Source of the DNA: Riemerella columbipharyngis
GTDB lineage: Bacteria; Bacteroidota; Bacteroidia; Flavobacteriales; Weeksellaceae
DNA: 64,000 bases
Direction of reading: 5' to 3'
Assembly: GCF_900101995.1 (NCBI RefSeq)
Contig: NZ_FNAS01000010.1
Coordinates: forward strand, 1 to 64,000
In this document: positions 459 through 59,021 of the stretch, one piece after another
How the letters are laid out: each line of letters begins with the position of its first letter
Numbering within the stretch: the first letter of the stretch is position 1
Notes under the pieces: model-generated
What the model was told of the DNA's origin: nothing
Database searches by the model: none
The model's input: the letters and a program-made list of their open reading frames with translations, nothing else
Position numbers and translations under genes: made by a program

Positions 459-1574
459 GAATTGAAGTAAAACACACTTGCGAAAATTTCAAAAGTTTTC
501 GAGCAGAGAAAGTAAAATCATTGTTCAATGCGGAAAGCGGGCACGAGTGGGAACACATTGCAGAACTACCAATAGAGGATAGCGATTGGCAAATAGGGCT
601 TATTGTCGGAGCTTCCGGAAGCGGTAAGACTTCTATCGGTTCAAAAATATGGGAAAACGGCATTATAAATCTCAGAGAGGGATGGAATGATGATTTGCCT
701 ATTATTGAAGATATAGCTCCCGATAAATCAATGGATGAAGTAACCTCTGCTCTTTCTGCAGTAGGACTTGGAGATGTACCCGCGTGGCTGCGTCCATTCA
801 AGGTATTAAGTAACGGAGAGCAATTTAGAGCAGGCTTAGCGCGACTTATTTGTGAAGATAAAGACAAAATAGTAGTAGATGAGTTCACATCTGTGGTGGA
901 TAGGCAAATAGCTAAGATAGGAGCCTCCGCGTTTGCTAAAGCGTGGAGAAGAAAAGAGAAAAGGCAAATAGTGCTTCTTTCTTGTCATTACGATATTATA
1001 GAGTGGTTGCAACCAGATTGGGTTTATGATACGAGATTGTCGGAAGTAAAAAAAAGTCCCAAAACGACCACCTATCAAGCTGGAAATTTGGAAAACAAAC
1101 GGAACTTGGTGGAAGCTGCTATTTGAAGAGCATCATTATCTGAAAAGCTCTCTATCTATTGCTGGGGAATATTATATAGGTATTATTGATGGAAAGCCCG
1201 TTTGTCACTTAGCATTCACACCCTTCTTTCAAGTAAAAGCATACAGAGCAGTCCGCTTGGTAGTATTACCAGAATGGCAGGGGGTAGGGATAGGTTTAAG
1301 ATTCTTAGAAGAATGTTGTCAGATGTATTTAGAGGGCAAAAATAGGGCGGAAAAATGTTATCCTACTTATTTCAAGACATCTCACCCCAGACTTATAAAA
1401 GCCTTGTCTAACAGCAAGAAATGGCGTTTTAGCAACCAATCTCTTTACGGAAGCAACAAGCTTAGAAATATGAATAGTATCCGTAAATCAAGCAAGAGTG
1501 ATATAGCGAGAAAAAATATCGGATACGGCGGTCATTTTAGAGCGACTTGCAGCTTTAAGTATCTTGGAGAATAA
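455..1574 (+). CDS. ABC ATPase fused to a GNAT acetyltransferase (COG2401 type), interrupted by a frameshift
   Basis: The first part (residues 1-200) is a complete ABC ATPase: Walker A GASGSGKTS, signature LSNGEQ, Walker B KIVVDEFTS and H-loop LSCHYD. No membrane domain is present, so it is not a transporter subunit. The second part, read from about 1050 one frame on, is a GNAT-like domain with WWKLLFEEHHYL, the acyl-CoA loop region VVLPEWQGVGIG and TSHPRLI. The family (ABC ATPase fused to a predicted acetyltransferase) is normally one polypeptide. Here an A8 run at 1048-1055 puts the halves in different frames, and seven A would join them. This may be a mutation, a sequencing error or slippage on the A run. 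Its place at the right end of a Mu-like phage matches the Mu DNA-modification gene mom, also of the acyltransferase superfamily, so a role in DNA modification is possible but unproven. Confidence 0.75.
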
Positions 1575-1579
1575 TAATG

Positions 1580-1610
1580 AAAGCCTCGTGTTTTTACGGG
1601 GCTTTTTTTT
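1580..1610 (+). terminator. Rho-independent terminator after the ABC-GNAT gene
   Basis: AAAGCC(T)CGT pairs with ACGGGGCTTT, followed by a run of T. It begins six bases after the stop codon and abuts the phage end repeats. Because an open frame runs through it from 1564, that upstream part of the methyltransferase frame is not genuine coding sequence. Confidence 0.75.
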
Positions 1611-1658
1611 TGGATATTTCGTTTTACAAAACTGGATATTTCGTTTTGCGGATTATAC
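1611..1658 (+). repeat. Tandem 22-bp Mu-like end repeats (right end)
   Basis: TGGATATTTCGTTTT starts at 1611 and again at 1633, a period of 22 bp. The second copy continues into GCGGATTATAC. The same core, A(C/T)ATTTCGTTTTGCGG(A/G)TTATA, recurs at 57207-57231 and inverted at 56654-56678. The spacing and terminal position fit transposase-binding sites of a Mu-like element. Confidence 0.6.
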
Positions 1659-2472
1659 TTATGATGATGTAGAAAGAATAAATAAATGGATTTTTAGTGA
1701 AATATTGGATGATGAAAATAGAATTGGACATCTCAGTAGTCGCGGATCTAATGATTTTCAAGGACAGAGTTCTGTCAATATAAATAGATATATTGTAAAA
1801 TTATCCGACAGAAGTAATAGGAGATATAGGTCAACATTAAATATTGATAAGCAAAATTTAATCAAAGTAATAATCTATTTTTCCGCTCGTCATTGCATTG
1901 CAGCCGATTGGCTCAACGATCGTGACCAATTCCTCTACCCTAATGACGGATGGAAAACGGATAAAGAATTTCAAAGTGATTGCTTGGCGTTTACGATTTT
2001 TCATTCTCAAAACAGAATTTCTTCCCAAGAAGGTATAAACCACTGGATACCCTTTACCGAACAAGAAGTAGATGCCAAAGAGCGTTTTGAAAGCCATTTT
2101 ATGACGGATTTCTTAAAAGGTAAATTAGGCAATAAAAAAGAAGAAAACCAACTGTTTACCTCATCATCAGACGAACAACCCACCTGCCTGATTCCCGAAG
2201 CTCCTATCTCCTTTTCGGCGGAAGCACAAGCTGTTTTTGATGCCGGAAAAGAACTTTGGAAATACTACCATACACAAACAGATGCCAATCCGAATGCAAG
2301 TCTATACGACATTAGGGCTCATTTCCAAGGGCGTAACGACAAAGGGAAAATGAATGCCAAAAGCGATGACGCTGCATATACCGGACTGATGAACAATCTA
2401 AAAGAAAACTTAAAAAATTTAGCTGAAAAAATCACACCAAAAGTATATGCGTATGGTTTTTTGAGAGAATAA
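1659..2472 (+). pseudogene. C-terminal fragment of a putative DNA methyltransferase / restriction-modification protein
   Basis: About 270 residues continue to a normal stop. Features include ADWLNDRDQFLYPNDGW, FTIFHSQNRISS, HWIPFTEQEV and a C-terminal block with ELWKYYHTQ, ASLYDIRAHFQGRN and MNAKSDDAAY. I associate these with the C-terminal part of large Bacteroidota restriction-modification methylases of the Eco57I type, from memory of the family and without a search. The catalytic N-terminal part (SAM-binding and NPPY motifs) is absent. The frame begins directly at the prophage end, so the gene was probably split by the insertion and its 5' part lies beyond the prophage, outside the window. 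The fragment is presumably not functional. Confidence 0.6.
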
Positions 2473-2489
2473 TAAGATAAGTATTTAGC

Positions 2490-2664
2490 TGAAAAACAGT
2501 CCTCTTAATAGAGACACCCACCGTAGTGGTAATTTTCACGAACTTAATTGGACTCGCCCGAGATTTTCAGGGCATTGCAGGCTTTATATCTATCTCCCCG
2601 TCATACGGATTCTTTCACAAGTCATCTGCACTATAAAATTATAAAAACTTTTTATAACTGTAAA
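2490..2664 (-). ncRNA. Conserved small-RNA-like element, copy A
   Basis: Read on the minus strand, this block matches 57240-57405 over its whole length, with blocks of identity such as GTATGACGGGGAG, AATGCCCTGAAAATC and GTTCGTGAAAATTACC. Neither copy has an open frame of note. The promoter region here is degenerate (TAATTTTA in place of TAACTTTG at the -7 position), and the clear terminator of copy B is only partly kept. The 3' end points at the 3' end of the methyltransferase fragment. The RNA would begin near 2630. It may be an older or inactive copy. Confidence 0.5.
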
Positions 2665-53832: not shown

Positions 53833-53900
53833 ATGGCAAAAAAAGATAATTATTTGCCGTGTAATTTCACTTATGGCAAAAAACCACAATTATTTGCCGT
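53833..53900. repeat. Two tandem 40-bp-spaced hairpin units at the fic 3' end
   Basis: ATGGCAAAAAA, five to six bases and AATTATTTGCCGT occur at 53833-53860 and 53873-53900. Each unit is itself a hairpin (GGCAAA with TTTGCC). The second contains the last codons and stop of the fic gene. On the minus strand each can act as a weak terminator or as a protein-binding site. Confidence 0.55.
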
Positions 53901-54966
53901 TAGTTGTTCCCGCTAAAACATCTATAAGGTTATTGTTTATGTAATAATTAGACTTTCCTATTTTTACCTTTTCTAATATTCCTATATCTGAAATAACATC
54001 TAAATAATTTTGTGCAGTTCTTCTACTTACGCCTAAATCCTTTTCTAAAAACTCTATTTTAGTATATGGATTTTTAAAGAGATTGTTCAGCAAATCTTGG
54101 CTGTATATTTTAGGCAAATCCTCACGAAGTCTATGTTTAGTATCCTGCATTAAGGTTTTTATATTTTGGACTAAATCAATGGTCTGTTTTGCCGTAACCT
54201 CTACGCCTTTGATGAGGTACAAGATAAGACTTTCCCAGTCGTTATTACTTCTTACCCCTTGCAAGACTTGGTAGTACTGCTGTTTGTTTCTGATGATATA
54301 ACGGCTTAAATACAATACGGGCAAATCCAAAAGCCCCTGCAATACCAAGTATAGTATATTAACAATTCTACCCGTCCTGCCGTTTCCATCGTAAAAAGGG
54401 TGTATGCTCTCAAACTGATAGTGTATAACCGCCATCTTAGTCAATGGGTCTAATCCTGAAAAGTCATTATCATTAATAAACTTCTCAAGGTTTGCCATAA
54501 GGCTTAAAATCTCGTCTTTATCTTGCGGAGGTATATAAACCACCTCACCAAACGAATTAACCAATTTTGTCCCTGCCTGCGTTCTAAATCCTGCCTTATT
54601 TTGCTCTAATTTCTGCTGTATAGCTATGATATGTTTATTTAGTAATAATTGCTCTTTACGGACGATTTCAAAGCCTAATTTCAAACTTTGGGCGTAATTA
54701 TATACTTCCTTTGTAGCAGGGTTTTTGGTTTCTATTAAAATATTTTCCTTATAAAGGTCGTCGTGCGTAGTTACAATATTCTCTATTTCGCTACTATCTT
54801 TTGCCTCTTGCAGTGCAAGGGTATTGATGAGGATATGCTCGTTTGGAATGGTCTTTACCGTCCCTTTGAGTTCCGCTAAATATCGGTGTGACTTCGTAAG
54901 CTGTTTTAGTACCACTAAGGTCTCTATTTCTTCCTGAGGCGGTAAATGGGGTAATTTCGTATTCAT
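53890..54966 (-). CDS. Fic family protein (class II, self-inhibited)
   Basis: Fic enzymes transfer AMP or related groups to target proteins. The 358-residue protein has a Fic_N part with the inhibitory motif SSEIEN (pattern S-x-x-x-E-N) near residue 58, the Fic core HPFYDGNGRTGRIVNILYLV with catalytic histidine near residue 196, and a C-terminal winged helix (TKIEFLEKDLGVSRRTAQNY). The full catalytic motif and inhibitor glutamate are kept, so it is probably active but regulated. The target is unknown. Gene next to the integrase, four bases downstream of it. A role in element stability or phage defence is a guess. Confidence 0.9.
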   Translation of the reverse strand: MNTKLPHLPPQEEIETLVVLKQLTKSHRYLAELKGTVKTIPNEHILINTLALQEAKDSSEIENIVTTHDDLYKENILIETKNPATKEVYNYAQSLKLGFEIVRKEQLLLNKHIIAIQQKLEQNKAGFRTQAGTKLVNSFGEVVYIPPQDKDEILSLMANLEKFINDNDFSGLDPLTKMAVIHYQFESIHPFYDGNGRTGRIVNILYLVLQGLLDLPVLYLSRYIIRNKQQYYQVLQGVRSNNDWESLILYLIKGVEVTAKQTIDLVQNIKTLMQDTKHRLREDLPKIYSQDLLNNLFKNPYTKIEFLEKDLGVSRRTAQNYLDVISDIGILEKVKIGKSNYYINNNLIDVLAGTTNGK

Positions 54967-54970
54967 AGTA

Positions 54971-56323
54971 TTAATTTAATTGATTTGGGTTAAACTCTAT
55001 GTCTTCTAGTGCCTGATATAGTTTTATCGCTTTTTGCTGTTGTCGTGTGTCTATATCCGTTTTGTTGTAATGGTTCAGCATTTCCATACTTTGGTGGTTG
55101 GTCATCAGTTGTAAGGTTTCAGGGGCTATATATTGGCTAAATAGCGTTACTGCAGTTTGCCTGCCTATATGAGAAGTTACCAAATCATAAAACGGATATT
55201 TGCCCTCTATTCTTCTATTTCCGTTACCTGTGTTTTTGGTTTTTGCACTTTCTACCATTTTATCAAACCCCGCAATCTTACAAACCTTTTTTATTTGTCG
55301 GTTATAGTATTGTTCACTTACTGCCTCAGGGAATTTACCGCCTCTTTTGTCCATTATTTTGAGTATTTTAGGAATTAAAGGTGTGTATTTTACCCCGCCT
55401 GTTGCGGTATTTATATTTTTGCGTTCTATTACTTTGATATACTTTCTTTTATCTACCTCAATAATATTATTAACATCAAGGCTCAGCAGTTCCGATACCC
55501 TCAGGGCTGTATAACACGAAATTATTAGCCAATCTCTGGCGTTGTCCAAACTGCCTGTAAGGGGTAAATTTTCCAATATAGATAACTGTATAAAGCTAAA
55601 ATACAAGCCTTTGGTTATGTTGTCAGGGTTGCGGTTTATTTTCCAATTAAGTACCTCTTTGCTGATATTATGCTCTGTTTCCGAAAACCTGCACAACATT
55701 TTTATATCTTTCAAATACTTAGTTTGCGTTTGTACAGAGTAACTCTGTTTATTGAGCCATTCCACAAACTTATTACGAAAGGCGTTGTTTATATCCGTTA
55801 CTTTCAGTTGCCTATCAAATTTGTGTAAAGTATTTTTAAGCCCTTTGTATTTCTTGATTGTATTTTCAGAAATAGGTTTTTTATTTTGTGTTTTATCCTC
55901 AATACTTCTGTATTGAATATAGTAATCAATAAGACTATCAAACTTTATAGGGATAGTATATTTTTTGTCCGCATCTATTTTATGCCCGAAGTAATTTATC
56001 AGGATATATTTTTTCAAAAAATCTTTTAGTTCCAAAGATGACAAATTCAAATTATCATCTATCAGATTGGATATTTCCAGCTTAAAGGCATTAAGGCGTT
56101 TGTTGAAATTAGCAATTTCTGCATTATGTTTTTTTGTTTCGGTAGTCTTAGCCCCTTTTATGATTTTTGAGGTATCCCATTCTTTTGATTTGTCATTCCA
56201 ATTATCAGAAAGAATAGAGAAAGGCGTAGATATAGATAAATTAAAATCCCTATTGGGTCTATACCTCAAATATATTTTTTTAGGCTCTTTATTACCCCTT
56301 AAATAGAAAATGATATTTGCCAT
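54971..56323 (-). CDS. Tyrosine recombinase (integrase) of the tRNA-Arg element
   Basis: The enzyme inserts and excises the element at the 19-bp att sites. The 450-residue protein has the Bacteroidota-type arm-binding domain (KIYLRYRPNRDFNLSISTPF), a SAM-like core-binding domain (LKVTDINNAFRNKFVEWLN) and the catalytic domain with the first arginine in SCYTALRVSELLSLD, HxxR in TSHIGRQTAVTLF, the second histidine in LMTNHQSMEMLNHYNKTD and the tyrosine in the same segment. All catalytic positions are present. The promoter is overlapped by integrase-type repeats. Confidence 0.93.
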   Translation of the reverse strand: MANIIFYLRGNKEPKKIYLRYRPNRDFNLSISTPFSILSDNWNDKSKEWDTSKIIKGAKTTETKKHNAEIANFNKRLNAFKLEISNLIDDNLNLSSLELKDFLKKYILINYFGHKIDADKKYTIPIKFDSLIDYYIQYRSIEDKTQNKKPISENTIKKYKGLKNTLHKFDRQLKVTDINNAFRNKFVEWLNKQSYSVQTQTKYLKDIKMLCRFSETEHNISKEVLNWKINRNPDNITKGLYFSFIQLSILENLPLTGSLDNARDWLIISCYTALRVSELLSLDVNNIIEVDKRKYIKVIERKNINTATGGVKYTPLIPKILKIMDKRGGKFPEAVSEQYYNRQIKKVCKIAGFDKMVESAKTKNTGNGNRRIEGKYPFYDLVTSHIGRQTAVTLFSQYIAPETLQLMTNHQSMEMLNHYNKTDIDTRQQQKAIKLYQALEDIEFNPNQLN

Positions 56324-56653: not shown

Positions 56654-56678
56654 TATAACCCGCAAAACGAAATGTACA
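56654..56678 (-). repeat. Mu-like end repeat, left inverted copy
   Basis: The reverse complement contains ACATTTCGTTTTGCGGGTTA, the same core as at 1636-1657 and 57210-57230. Only one unit occurs here, as at the single L1 site of Mu. Confidence 0.55.
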
Positions 56679-56908
56679 TAGACGAATATGAGATTATTCT
56701 GCTGTATATAGAGAAAGGGGAGAGTACCGAGCTGGTACGGGGCTATTTGGAAAACAGGCGAAAAGAAAAGCTCAATAAGATACTAAGTGCCAATATTCTA
56801 AGCGTGTCTGCAAATCCTTTCTGCACGATAAAACGCCATACCGAGATAGAAACAGACAGACAGATCGCTTTGGATTTGTTTAATTTTTTGAAACTTTTGC
56901 AGGGGTGA
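56672..56908 (+). CDS. Small phage-remnant protein of unknown function
   Basis: The 78-residue frame (MYIDEYEIILLYIEKGESTE to LFNFLKLLQG) has ELVRGYLENRRKEKLNKIL and CTIKRHTEIETDRQIALDLF, mostly helical and charged. The start codon lies inside the end repeat, which suggests that the true N-terminus was lost or that the frame was created by a deletion. Family unknown. Confidence 0.45.
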   Translation: MYIDEYEIILLYIEKGESTELVRGYLENRRKEKLNKILSANILSVSANPFCTIKRHTEIETDRQIALDLFNFLKLLQG

Positions 56909-57184: not shown

Positions 57185-57233
57185 TGTACATTTCATTTTG
57201 AAAAAGTGTACATTTCGTTTTGCGGATTATACA
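57185..57233 (+). repeat. Tandem 22-bp Mu-like end repeats, second site
   Basis: TGTACATTTC(A/G)TTTTG starts at 57185 and 57207, 22 bp apart, and the second continues into CGGATTATACA. Same layout as 1611-1658. It ends six bases before the -33 box of the small RNA copy B. Confidence 0.6.
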
Positions 57234-57239
57234 TAGACT

Positions 57240-57270
57240 TTTGCAGATATAAAAAGTTTTTGTAACTTTG
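57240..57270 (+). promoter_or_regulatory. Promoter of small RNA copy B
   Basis: TTTG (57240-57243), a 19-nt spacer and TAACTTTG (57263-57270) match the Bacteroidota consensus. Confidence 0.7.
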
Positions 57271-57273
57271 TGG

Positions 57274-57430
57274 TGCAGATGGCTTGCAAAAGAATCTGTA
57301 TGACGGGGAGGTGGACATAAAGGCATTAATGCCCTGAAAATCCCGGTCGCAACCGATTAAGTTCGTGAAAATTACCACTACGGTGAGTGTATTTATTAAG
57401 AGGGGCTATTTTAGAACCTCTTATTTTTTT
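57274..57430 (+). ncRNA. Conserved small-RNA-like element, copy B, with promoter and terminator
   Basis: The RNA would start near 57274 and end in the T run at 57424-57430, about 150 nt. It has no coding frame with a reasonable start. Blocks shared with copy A include GTATGACGGGGAGGT (one difference), AATGCCCTGAAAATC and AAGTTCGTGAAAATTACCAC. Local pairings such as GCATTAATGC and CCACTACGG(TG) with neighbours suggest structure. The terminator is AAGAGG (57398-57403) with CCTCTT (57417-57422). The 3' end overlaps the last codons of the toxin gene on the other strand. It does not end like tmRNA and lacks the SRP RNA tetraloop core. Rfam families such as Flavo-1 should be compared. Confidence 0.6.
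57398..57430 (+). terminator. Terminator of small RNA copy B
   Basis: AAGAGG pairs with CCTCTT around GGCTATTTTAGAA and is followed by ATTTTTTTT. It includes the stop codon of the converging toxin gene. Confidence 0.75.
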
Positions 57431-59021
57431 TACTCTTACCCACCCAAATATCTCTAAAATTTTCTTTGAATTTCTTTGATAAAACATCTTGTCTAATCAC
57501 AGGTATAGGACGACTCCCTTTAAACAACATTACCTCATTCACACTATTATTGTTTTCAAAAAACCACCTAATACTTTCTGCCATAACACTTACATCATCT
57601 GTCCCTACTATATCTAAGATAATTCTATCAGATTGTGTACTTGCTTCTATCAGTCGTTGTTTTATGGTTGATTTTCCATTAATCGTCTTACCCTCGTAAT
57701 AAAAATATTTGTTGCTTTTCACAATAATGAAGTCTGCACTTTTAGCACCAGAAACATTCGGCAGTAAATAAACATCATACCCGTTTTGAATAAGTTTCTT
57801 TGCTATCGTAATGTTTTTAGGCATTTCGGTAGCTTTTAGAGCTTCATCGTATTGTTCAATATTAAAACCATAAATCTTATTTTTAACATTGGATAAACGC
57901 CTGATTTCTCTAAACTCTTTCATTTGAGTAATAGACTTAATCAGAGAAACTTTCTCAGCGTTAGTTTCAAGTTTGTTATAATAATTAATTGCTTGTGAGA
58001 TACCCTTTATCCCTGTAGAAACTACTCCGCCAGTAATATCCGAAAATAGAATATTAGTGTTTATTCGCTTTGGCTTTAAACTTTTATAGAGGTCTATTTT
58101 TTGTTTAATGACATCCTGCTTACCCCAAATATATCCTCTATTATTCTGCACCCAGAAAGGCTTTACCTTAGCCCTTTTTATCTTGTCTTGGTTCTTCTCT
58201 ACCCATTCCCTTAACGGCTTATGTACTTCCTTAACCTCGTTTTTGCTCGGCAACGGCTCTAAGCCTTGGGCTATCCTTTCGTTGTCTTTATCCATTTCAG
58301 CCCAAGTTTTCAAGATAGGCACGGTGGTACATCGACATTGGGGGTGCCAGCCCGTGAACTTAAAATCTTTGGGGTACTTACCCGCCATTTCCGCACAAAA
58401 AGGACAATGGTGGGGATTGTTGGAAAGCCTTACCTCTATGCCAATCACAAAATCAAACTCTTGGTATTTTAGATAGTTGGCTTCGTGGTAGGCAATGTTA
58501 TTCTCGGAGCGGGTAAGCCTCATTGCATTTTTGTAAGACGAGCGGTACACACCCTGCCCCGGGTGGTAATCCTTTGCGTTTTTGCTCAATGTCAAATTTC
58601 CGTGCTTGTCTCTTACTCTTCGGAACAATTTATCGGGATCGTTCAGGTAGCTTCGCAAGTCTCTTGAAAGTTGGGCGGCAGATTTTCCCTCACCCAAACC
58701 TAAATCCAATCCAAGCTCTATTTCCTTTTTGAATTGCTCGGAATACTTCCATACCCTGTCGGATAATGAAAGCCCGTCGGCTTTTCTGTTTTGGAACGCC
58801 AGTAACGCCTCTGCATTATGTCTTTGGTACCTGCGGACAACTGCCTCGCTAATGTTCGTCCTTTTCGCTATTTCCTGCACCAGCCGGCTTTGCTTATCTT
58901 CCGCCAGACGCCATTCTTTTTCGGAGTGGCTTTGTATGGTAAAGGTCAAAGATTGTGCAAAGGCTTCAAAAAGACGGTTTTTAATTATCTCCCCTGTAAA
59001 AAAAACTCTCTGAAATAGCAA
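57411..59021 (-). CDS. MuF-type phage minor head protein with nuclease-toxin tail
   Basis: The first 260 residues are a Mu F-like head morphogenesis protein: QLSRDLRSYLNDPDKLFRR, YRSSYKNAMRLTRSENNIAY and the cysteine motif HHCPFCAEMAG with WHPQCRCTTVP. After a linker (about 290-400), the C-terminal 130 residues contain NGYDVYLLPNVSGAKSADFI, YFYYEGKTINGKST and IEASTQSDRIILDI, the D...ExK pattern of PD-(D/E)XK-like nuclease toxins of the CdiA C-terminal type. Such MuF-toxin fusions are known in Firmicutes prophages. The only start is TTG, preceded at once by TAA, so the 5' end may be truncated. No immunity gene follows; small RNA copy B converges on its 3' end. Confidence 0.75.
   Translation of the reverse strand: MLFQRVFFTGEIIKNRLFEAFAQSLTFTIQSHSEKEWRLAEDKQSRLVQEIAKRTNISEAVVRRYQRHNAEALLAFQNRKADGLSLSDRVWKYSEQFKKEIELGLDLGLGEGKSAAQLSRDLRSYLNDPDKLFRRVRDKHGNLTLSKNAKDYHPGQGVYRSSYKNAMRLTRSENNIAYHEANYLKYQEFDFVIGIEVRLSNNPHHCPFCAEMAGKYPKDFKFTGWHPQCRCTTVPILKTWAEMDKDNERIAQGLEPLPSKNEVKEVHKPLREWVEKNQDKIKRAKVKPFWVQNNRGYIWGKQDVIKQKIDLYKSLKPKRINTNILFSDITGGVVSTGIKGISQAINYYNKLETNAEKVSLIKSITQMKEFREIRRLSNVKNKIYGFNIEQYDEALKATEMPKNITIAKKLIQNGYDVYLLPNVSGAKSADFIIVKSNKYFYYEGKTINGKSTIKQRLIEASTQSDRIILDIVGTDDVSVMAESIRWFFENNNSVNEVMLFKGSRPIPVIRQDVLSKKFKENFRDIWVGKSKKNKRF

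Follow-up and report, generated by a model that had tools for sequence, protein, structure and literature searches.

The stretch of DNA analyzed here, referred to as the window, comprises positions 1 to 64,000 of contig NZ_FNAS01000010.1 of Riemerella columbipharyngis (assembly GCF_900101995.1), and it contains two copies of a small RNA element, copy A and copy B. Copy B lies directly behind a gene for a MuF-type phage head protein with a toxin-like C-terminus, in a prophage remnant where the MuF gene adjoins a host DoxX-like gene; the copy B terminator overlaps the 3' end of the MuF gene, which is on the other strand. Copy A sits between an orphan gene and coaBC. In a blastn comparison inside the window the copies match in opposite orientation (E 7e-44), and positions 2501-2664 of copy A are identical to positions 57403-57240 of copy B at 138 of 164 nucleotides (nt) (84%), with 0 insertions or deletions. 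This agrees with the match of about 165 nt in opposite orientation described in an earlier, sequence-only reading of the same DNA. That reading listed copy A on the plus strand, but the transcribed strand is the reverse one, that is, minus at copy A and plus at copy B. It had also called the copy A promoter worn, and indeed TTG has become TTA and TAACTTTG has become TAATTTTA, while the spacing of 19 nt is intact. The whole 2.14-Mb genome has these 2 copies only. Coordinates of the features are given in Table 1.

The 26 differences between the copies are evenly distributed across the codon positions and no frame is open in both copies; the element is therefore non-coding, and a coding function was rejected on these grounds. 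When the window was scanned with Rfam 15, no family reached its gathering score except tRNAs at other sites. Known RNA families, including 6S, tmRNA, SRP and RNase P, were thus rejected; the sequence-only reading had likewise recognized neither copy as a tRNA, tmRNA, SRP or RNase P RNA from its motifs. A transposon arm was also considered and rejected, since no transposase was found among the open reading frames (ORFs) beside either copy and the homologues sit among phage late genes. No plasmid in PLSDB carries the element. The element is part of a phage toxin cassette rather than a transposon arm or a housekeeping RNA.

Table 1. Features at the two copies of the RNA element in the window
Feature	Position	Strand	Basis or remark
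Copy B promoter	57241..57270	+	TTG 57241-57243, 19 nt, TAACTTTG 57263-57270; from sequence and pattern match
Copy B structured small RNA, intact	57278..57431	+	5' end inferred; covariance-model match 57299-57431, R1 153.8 bits
Copy B intrinsic terminator	57398..57431	+	Hairpin 57398-57422, T-run 57423-57431; from sequence
MuF-type head morphogenesis/toxin gene, 536 amino acids (aa)	57411..59021	-	phrog_7625 head morphogenesis, E 1e-101
Small phage ORF upstream of copy B	56672..56908	+ (RNA strand)	By eye like a 124-aa Riemerella prophage gene
Copy A, decayed orphan RNA copy	2470..2627	-	Covariance-model match 2470-2605, R1 115.8 bits
Copy A worn promoter	2634..2663	-	-33 TTA 2661-2663, -7 TAATTTTA 2634-2641, spacing 19; read directly from the sequence
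Copy A terminator remains	2470..2506	-	AAGAGG arm present, CCTCTT partner gone (alignment A6)
Orphan gene convergent with copy A	1564..2472	+	No recognizable toxin domain

The promoter of copy B has the form TTG-N19-TAACTTTG, which is the Bacteroidota -33/-7 consensus, and it precedes a structured body of about 130 nt that ends in the terminator. The MuF protein encoded opposite consists of a carrier part and a C-terminal toxin domain. Its match to phrog_7625, together with the gene order in phage vB_RanS_PJN03, identifies an N-terminal domain of the MuF/SPP1 gp7 type encoded in a phage late operon; the carrier part also matches phrog_16625, annotated as 'Bxa ADP-ribosyl transferase'. The same MuF N-terminus is joined to different C-termini in several phage loci (L024, L101, L103, L067 and others; L numbers denote phage loci), so that the C-terminus is exchangeable. 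The C-terminus of the window protein resembles CdiA_C (PF18451) with E 7e-4, under the curated cut-off; weak matches of this toxin C-terminus to the model range from E 5e-4 to 3e-3, and the C-terminus at L067 matches with 9e-6. A D-x12-E-x-K motif is invariant in the toxin C-terminus (D77, E90 and K92 in alignment A5) and corresponds to the PD-(D/E)XK catalytic motif. From these sequence features the toxin C-terminus is predicted to be a PD-(D/E)XK nuclease. A second MuF gene in the same genome (C21:18012-18695; 545 aa) has an unrelated C-terminus and is without such an RNA; a MuF gene of R. columbina (G002:C22) shares its C-terminal end.

A covariance model of the RNA, R1, was used for homology searches; it was built with copies A and B included, so their own R1 scores are not independent. 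Homologues were found in Riemerella and Bergeyella prophages, in phage vB_RanS_PJN03, where the RNA stretch carries no annotation, and in four distant metagenomic phage types. Among 296 genomes of the family, which include R. columbina and R. anatipestifer from the same genus, true R1 matches were found in 4, and the toxin C-terminus was found in exactly those 4. Five weaker R1 matches (26-30 bits) in other Flavobacteriaceae were, judged by sequence and ORF context, terminator-like or coding, lay at unrelated genes, and were rejected as homologues. The arrangement of MuF toxin and RNA recurs in R. columbina, R. anatipestifer, Bergeyella zoohelcum and vB_RanS_PJN03. The phage gene order is terminase, portal, MuF-toxin, the RNA on the other strand, a convergent small phrog_10608 gene, and capsid genes.

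Across 80 phage loci whose MuF N-terminus is related, the RNA was found only alongside this particular C-terminus. When counted as distinct slots behind MuF genes, the RNA occupied 3 of 3 with this C-terminus and 0 of 41 with others (Fisher p 8e-5). Even the distant loci L096, L103 and L105, whose C-terminus is 46% identical, carry the RNA (E 9e-14). A DNA pattern of the RNA core, which holds no protein information, was then run against 2.9 million viral contigs; it found 10 stretches, and 10 of 10 lay directly behind a CdiA_C-like C-terminus, L159 and L161 being new cases. Six of these matches come from L096-type contigs, nearly identical representatives of a single phage type; independent cases therefore number about nine. 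In the opposite direction, a search with the toxin profile led to L170 (54% identity), where the RNA was then detected (E 1e-11), and order- and phylum-wide genome searches found no close toxin without the RNA. The carriers vary, from the Riemerella MuF protein to a Gln_amidase-containing protein (L096) and a protein with an unrelated N-terminus (L159), and the C-terminus and RNA stay paired in all of them. The RNA is thus completely paired with this toxin C-terminus in both search directions, and is encoded behind it on the opposite strand.

Comparison of near-identical phages shows that the two parts move together. L103 and L101 are 96% identical upstream, in the MuF part, and 97% identical downstream, but differ in toxin C-terminus and RNA. 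L103 has the toxin and RNA described here; L101, like L104, has an unrelated C-terminus and an unrelated RNA, a long hairpin of about 70 nt (2914-2995 in L101). The L101/L104 C-terminus is of a third kind and stands behind a Gln_amidase domain. The promoter is common to both phages, and the exchange border falls at the start of the RNA. Toxin C-terminus and RNA are thus swapped jointly as one cassette. In the cassette-specific stretch of L103 and L096 the RNA stands alone, with no cognate immunity protein; no ORF besides the toxin in the L103 cassette is shared with relatives, nor is there a shared ORF within the RNA. In L024 and its relative L023, the slot beside a different C-terminus holds protein genes, two of them in L024. 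The neighboring phrog_10608 gene is not the cognate factor, because it accompanies other toxins too. Should this C-terminus depend on a cognate immunity factor that moves with it in the swap, the L103 cassette offers no candidate but the RNA.

The RNAs form a structured family with promoter and terminator sequences. Ten of them were aligned by sequence only (alignment A6), and 92% of the cells of this alignment pair. Eight of 19 pairs were changed on both sides, a number reached by 0 of 500 shuffles, while slid controls gave 0 to 5. Below a [U/C]ACG tetraloop, the apical stem has A-U, G-C, U-A or C-G, depending on the copy, the C-G pair in L161 requiring a one-base shift in the alignment. The terminator hairpin of copy B also covaries in relatives. 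Almost no variation occurs in GAUUAAGUUCG and CCGAUUAAGUUCG. Compared with shuffled sequences, the folds of the phage copies have z values from -2.0 to -4.6 and that of copy B -1.3. The sequence-only reading had proposed a functional structured RNA, with covariation among homologues as a way to check it; covariation and folding uphold the proposal for the family and for copy B, but copy A is a decayed relic (see below). The invariant GUUCG raised the idea of a T-loop or tRNA decoy, but in most copies its flanks form no T-stem. Nothing like the RNA is present in Rfam or in the literature searched, and this structured small RNA family is previously undescribed.

We favor, with a probability of roughly 0.56, the reading that the RNA is the immunity factor, or antitoxin, of the polymorphic MuF toxin and acts on the toxin domain; expression of the RNA, binding to the toxin and its neutralization are what we infer. 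In this reading, a phage-encoded RNA of about 125-150 nt and the nuclease C-terminus of the MuF polymorphic toxin would together make up a toxin-immunity cassette. MuF is a minor head protein that presumably travels in the virion and is passed on to the next cell. The RNA would be made on the opposite strand from its own Bacteroidota promoter, ending at the toxin stop codon. Its own promoter allows for the RNA in both lysogen and producer cell, and transcription independent of the late operon would place it there before and during toxin production. Most likely, it would act as a pseudo-substrate that binds and inhibits the CdiA_C-like nuclease domain, resembling a type III antitoxin in its action, yet single, non-repetitive and convergently encoded. 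Direct inhibition of the nuclease domain is the simplest way in which specificity for one C-terminus could hold across several carriers.

Several observations weigh against this reading. The nuclease activity is a prediction; the CdiA_C (PF18451) matches score 18.0-26.2 bits against a curated cut-off of 26.6, and a sequence search of PDB finds no relative of the toxin. In the R. anatipestifer and R. columbina copies the -7 box is good, but no -33 box stands out clearly. The immunity factors known for MuF toxins are proteins (PMC5576092, PMC11699363). The hairpin in L101 and L104 could be a plain bidirectional terminator, and tight linkage would be equally expected if the RNA were a cis element carried along with the toxin gene's 3' end.

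The RNA could instead be a cis-acting antisense transcript, or a collision device, by which transcription or translation of the MuF toxin gene is curbed from the 3' end in a type I-like manner, without binding of the protein. The RNA is indeed encoded antisense, converges on the toxin gene and has a terminator overlapping the last codons. The overlap is, however, the terminator only, and the duplex predicted with the cognate toxin mRNA does not exceed in strength those with non-cognate MuF mRNAs, although this comparison used no accessibility model and is a weak test. Moreover, collision needs neither a conserved, covarying body of 130 nt nor the near-invariant GAUUAAGUUCG, nor specificity for a single C-terminus. 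On balance this reading is unlikely; that the RNA works as an antisense partner of the toxin mRNA is less probable than that it acts on the toxin domain. An element conserved as DNA only, whether it serves as a bidirectional terminator or marks a recombination site where the cassette ends, seems highly improbable: it would account for the exchange border that the element marks and for the terminator hairpin that ends every intact copy, but that border is found at the promoter, outside the RNA, and the exchange includes the RNA. Its helices also covary, and promoters on the RNA strand are enriched in such slots.

The pairing evidence by itself fits any obligate RNA partner, and the RNA might be required for toxin activity, or be a substrate or guide delivered with the toxin, rather than its antidote. 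Its own promoter, its opposite strand and its position in a slot that related phages use for protein genes fit immunity better, and the decaying copy A without a toxin resembles the orphan immunity genes that are usual in polymorphic toxin systems; we consider a role as toxin partner quite unlikely. Little probability is likewise given to a regulatory small RNA of the prophage that acts in trans on host or phage mRNAs and hitch-hikes beside the toxin. A promoter and terminator of its own and a moron-like position among late genes would suit such an RNA, but hitch-hiking would leave unexplained why the RNA always accompanies one C-terminus, in three or more carrier proteins, and why the two are swapped jointly between otherwise near-identical phages.

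RNA immunity acting on the MuF toxin domain can be compared with the closest known systems. With the MuF toxins (PMC5576092), such as Bxa of Bacteroides stercoris (PMC11699363), it has in common the MuF/SPP1 gp7 head carrier, the exchangeable C-termini and the slot behind the toxin gene. A small ORF follows 89.4% of MuF toxin genes (Jamet 2017, PMC5576092), and Bxa immunity is provided by the small proteins Bsi and BAH (PMC11699363); immunity in those systems thus consists of small proteins, whereas the cassette-specific slot found here contains nothing but an RNA, encoded on the other strand. The type III systems ToxIN, CptIN and TenpIN (PMC5086642) share the proposed principle, a structured non-coding RNA that neutralizes a nuclease. 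Their antitoxins consist of repeats that precede the toxin within a single operon, separated from it by a terminator, and are processed to pseudoknots (PMC5086642). In contrast, the RNA described here is a single, non-repetitive one that lies downstream of the toxin gene on the other strand under a promoter of its own, and a phage head protein supplies the toxin as its CdiA_C-like C-terminus; no tandem repeat array was found within the RNA (57200-57440 examined). As in type I systems, the RNA is encoded opposite the toxin gene, but there is almost no overlap and no preferential complementarity to the cognate mRNA, and the toxin is a large domain, not a small hydrophobic peptide. With the CdiA_C toxins of contact-dependent inhibition (CDI) systems (PF18451) there is a weak Pfam match and the D-x12-E-x-K motif is kept; the immunity factor in CDI is a protein, CdiI.

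Anti-CRISPR RNAs, which are phage-borne mimics of CRISPR repeats, are also phage-encoded small RNAs, and the hosts here have Cas9. An anti-CRISPR RNA or tracrRNA mimic was rejected, as the RNA has no similarity to the host II-C repeat or to the tracrRNA-like region. The genome has two Cas9-type genes, on contigs C32 and C8; the array on C32 has more than 40 repeats, with several spacers present 2-3 times, and there is no array at C8, where the gene is at the end of a 9.6-kb contig.

The literature searched, whose coverage leaves out most subscription journals, contains no account of RNA-based immunity to MuF or other polymorphic toxins. If the RNA is an immunity factor, it would give the first case of RNA immunity among delivered, polymorphic toxins, and RNA antitoxins and virion-delivered toxins would be united in one system. 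Immunity to polymorphic toxins is normally sought as small proteins, and if RNA serves instead for a whole class of phage-carried nucleases, such searches would miss it; orphan toxins without an immunity gene may then have an RNA instead.

Other slots suggest a wider pattern. Promoters of the -33/-7 form on the RNA strand, 165 nt or less from the MuF stop codon, were found in 7 of 44 distinct slots, compared with 0.6 expected; two of the seven, L086 and L109, look coding or incidental. At L067 (7040-7170, RNA strand -), a TTG-N19-TAACTTTG promoter precedes a structured RNA of about 95 nt with a strong terminator, behind a MuF C-terminus of the CdiA_C type; it is likely a second family of such RNAs. 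At L041 (1923-2061, RNA strand -), the gap behind the gene for a distant Bacteroidota MuF-like protein with a CdiA_C-like C-terminus holds a promoter and a strongly folding RNA of about 75 nt. Both RNAs are unrelated in sequence to the one described here. These two cases suggest that RNA partners go with the nuclease type. The chances appear evenly balanced that PD-(D/E)XK MuF toxins are neutralized by cognate non-coding RNAs co-exchanged with the toxin domain, with several unrelated families (the present one, L067 and L041) occupying the same slot.

At copy A the toxin, the promoter and the fold are all gone, leaving it an orphan of the cassette. It is changed at 27 of 114 columns that are conserved in the other RNAs, compared with 5 of 114 for copy B, and its fold is no better than that of shuffled sequences (z +0.18). 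Its 5' end, at about 2627, was placed from the position of the -7 box. A search for the toxin C-terminus found none at this locus, and the orphan gene has no match in Pfam, PHROG, NCBIfam or PADLOC. Upstream lies a phage ABC-ATPase/acetyltransferase gene (phrog_11143) spread across two ORFs (455-1126 and 1257-1574), with an apparent frameshift; its second half resembles, by eye, Mom-like acetyltransferases. Copy A is best read as the relic of a second prophage copy.

Family searches with the small ORF upstream of copy B gave no convincing match. Also next to the copy B toxin, in the region 53890-56323, a Fic protein with a SoFic-like C-terminus is encoded right after a tyrosine recombinase, and in Bergeyella a recombinase likewise follows the remnant of MuF gene and RNA.
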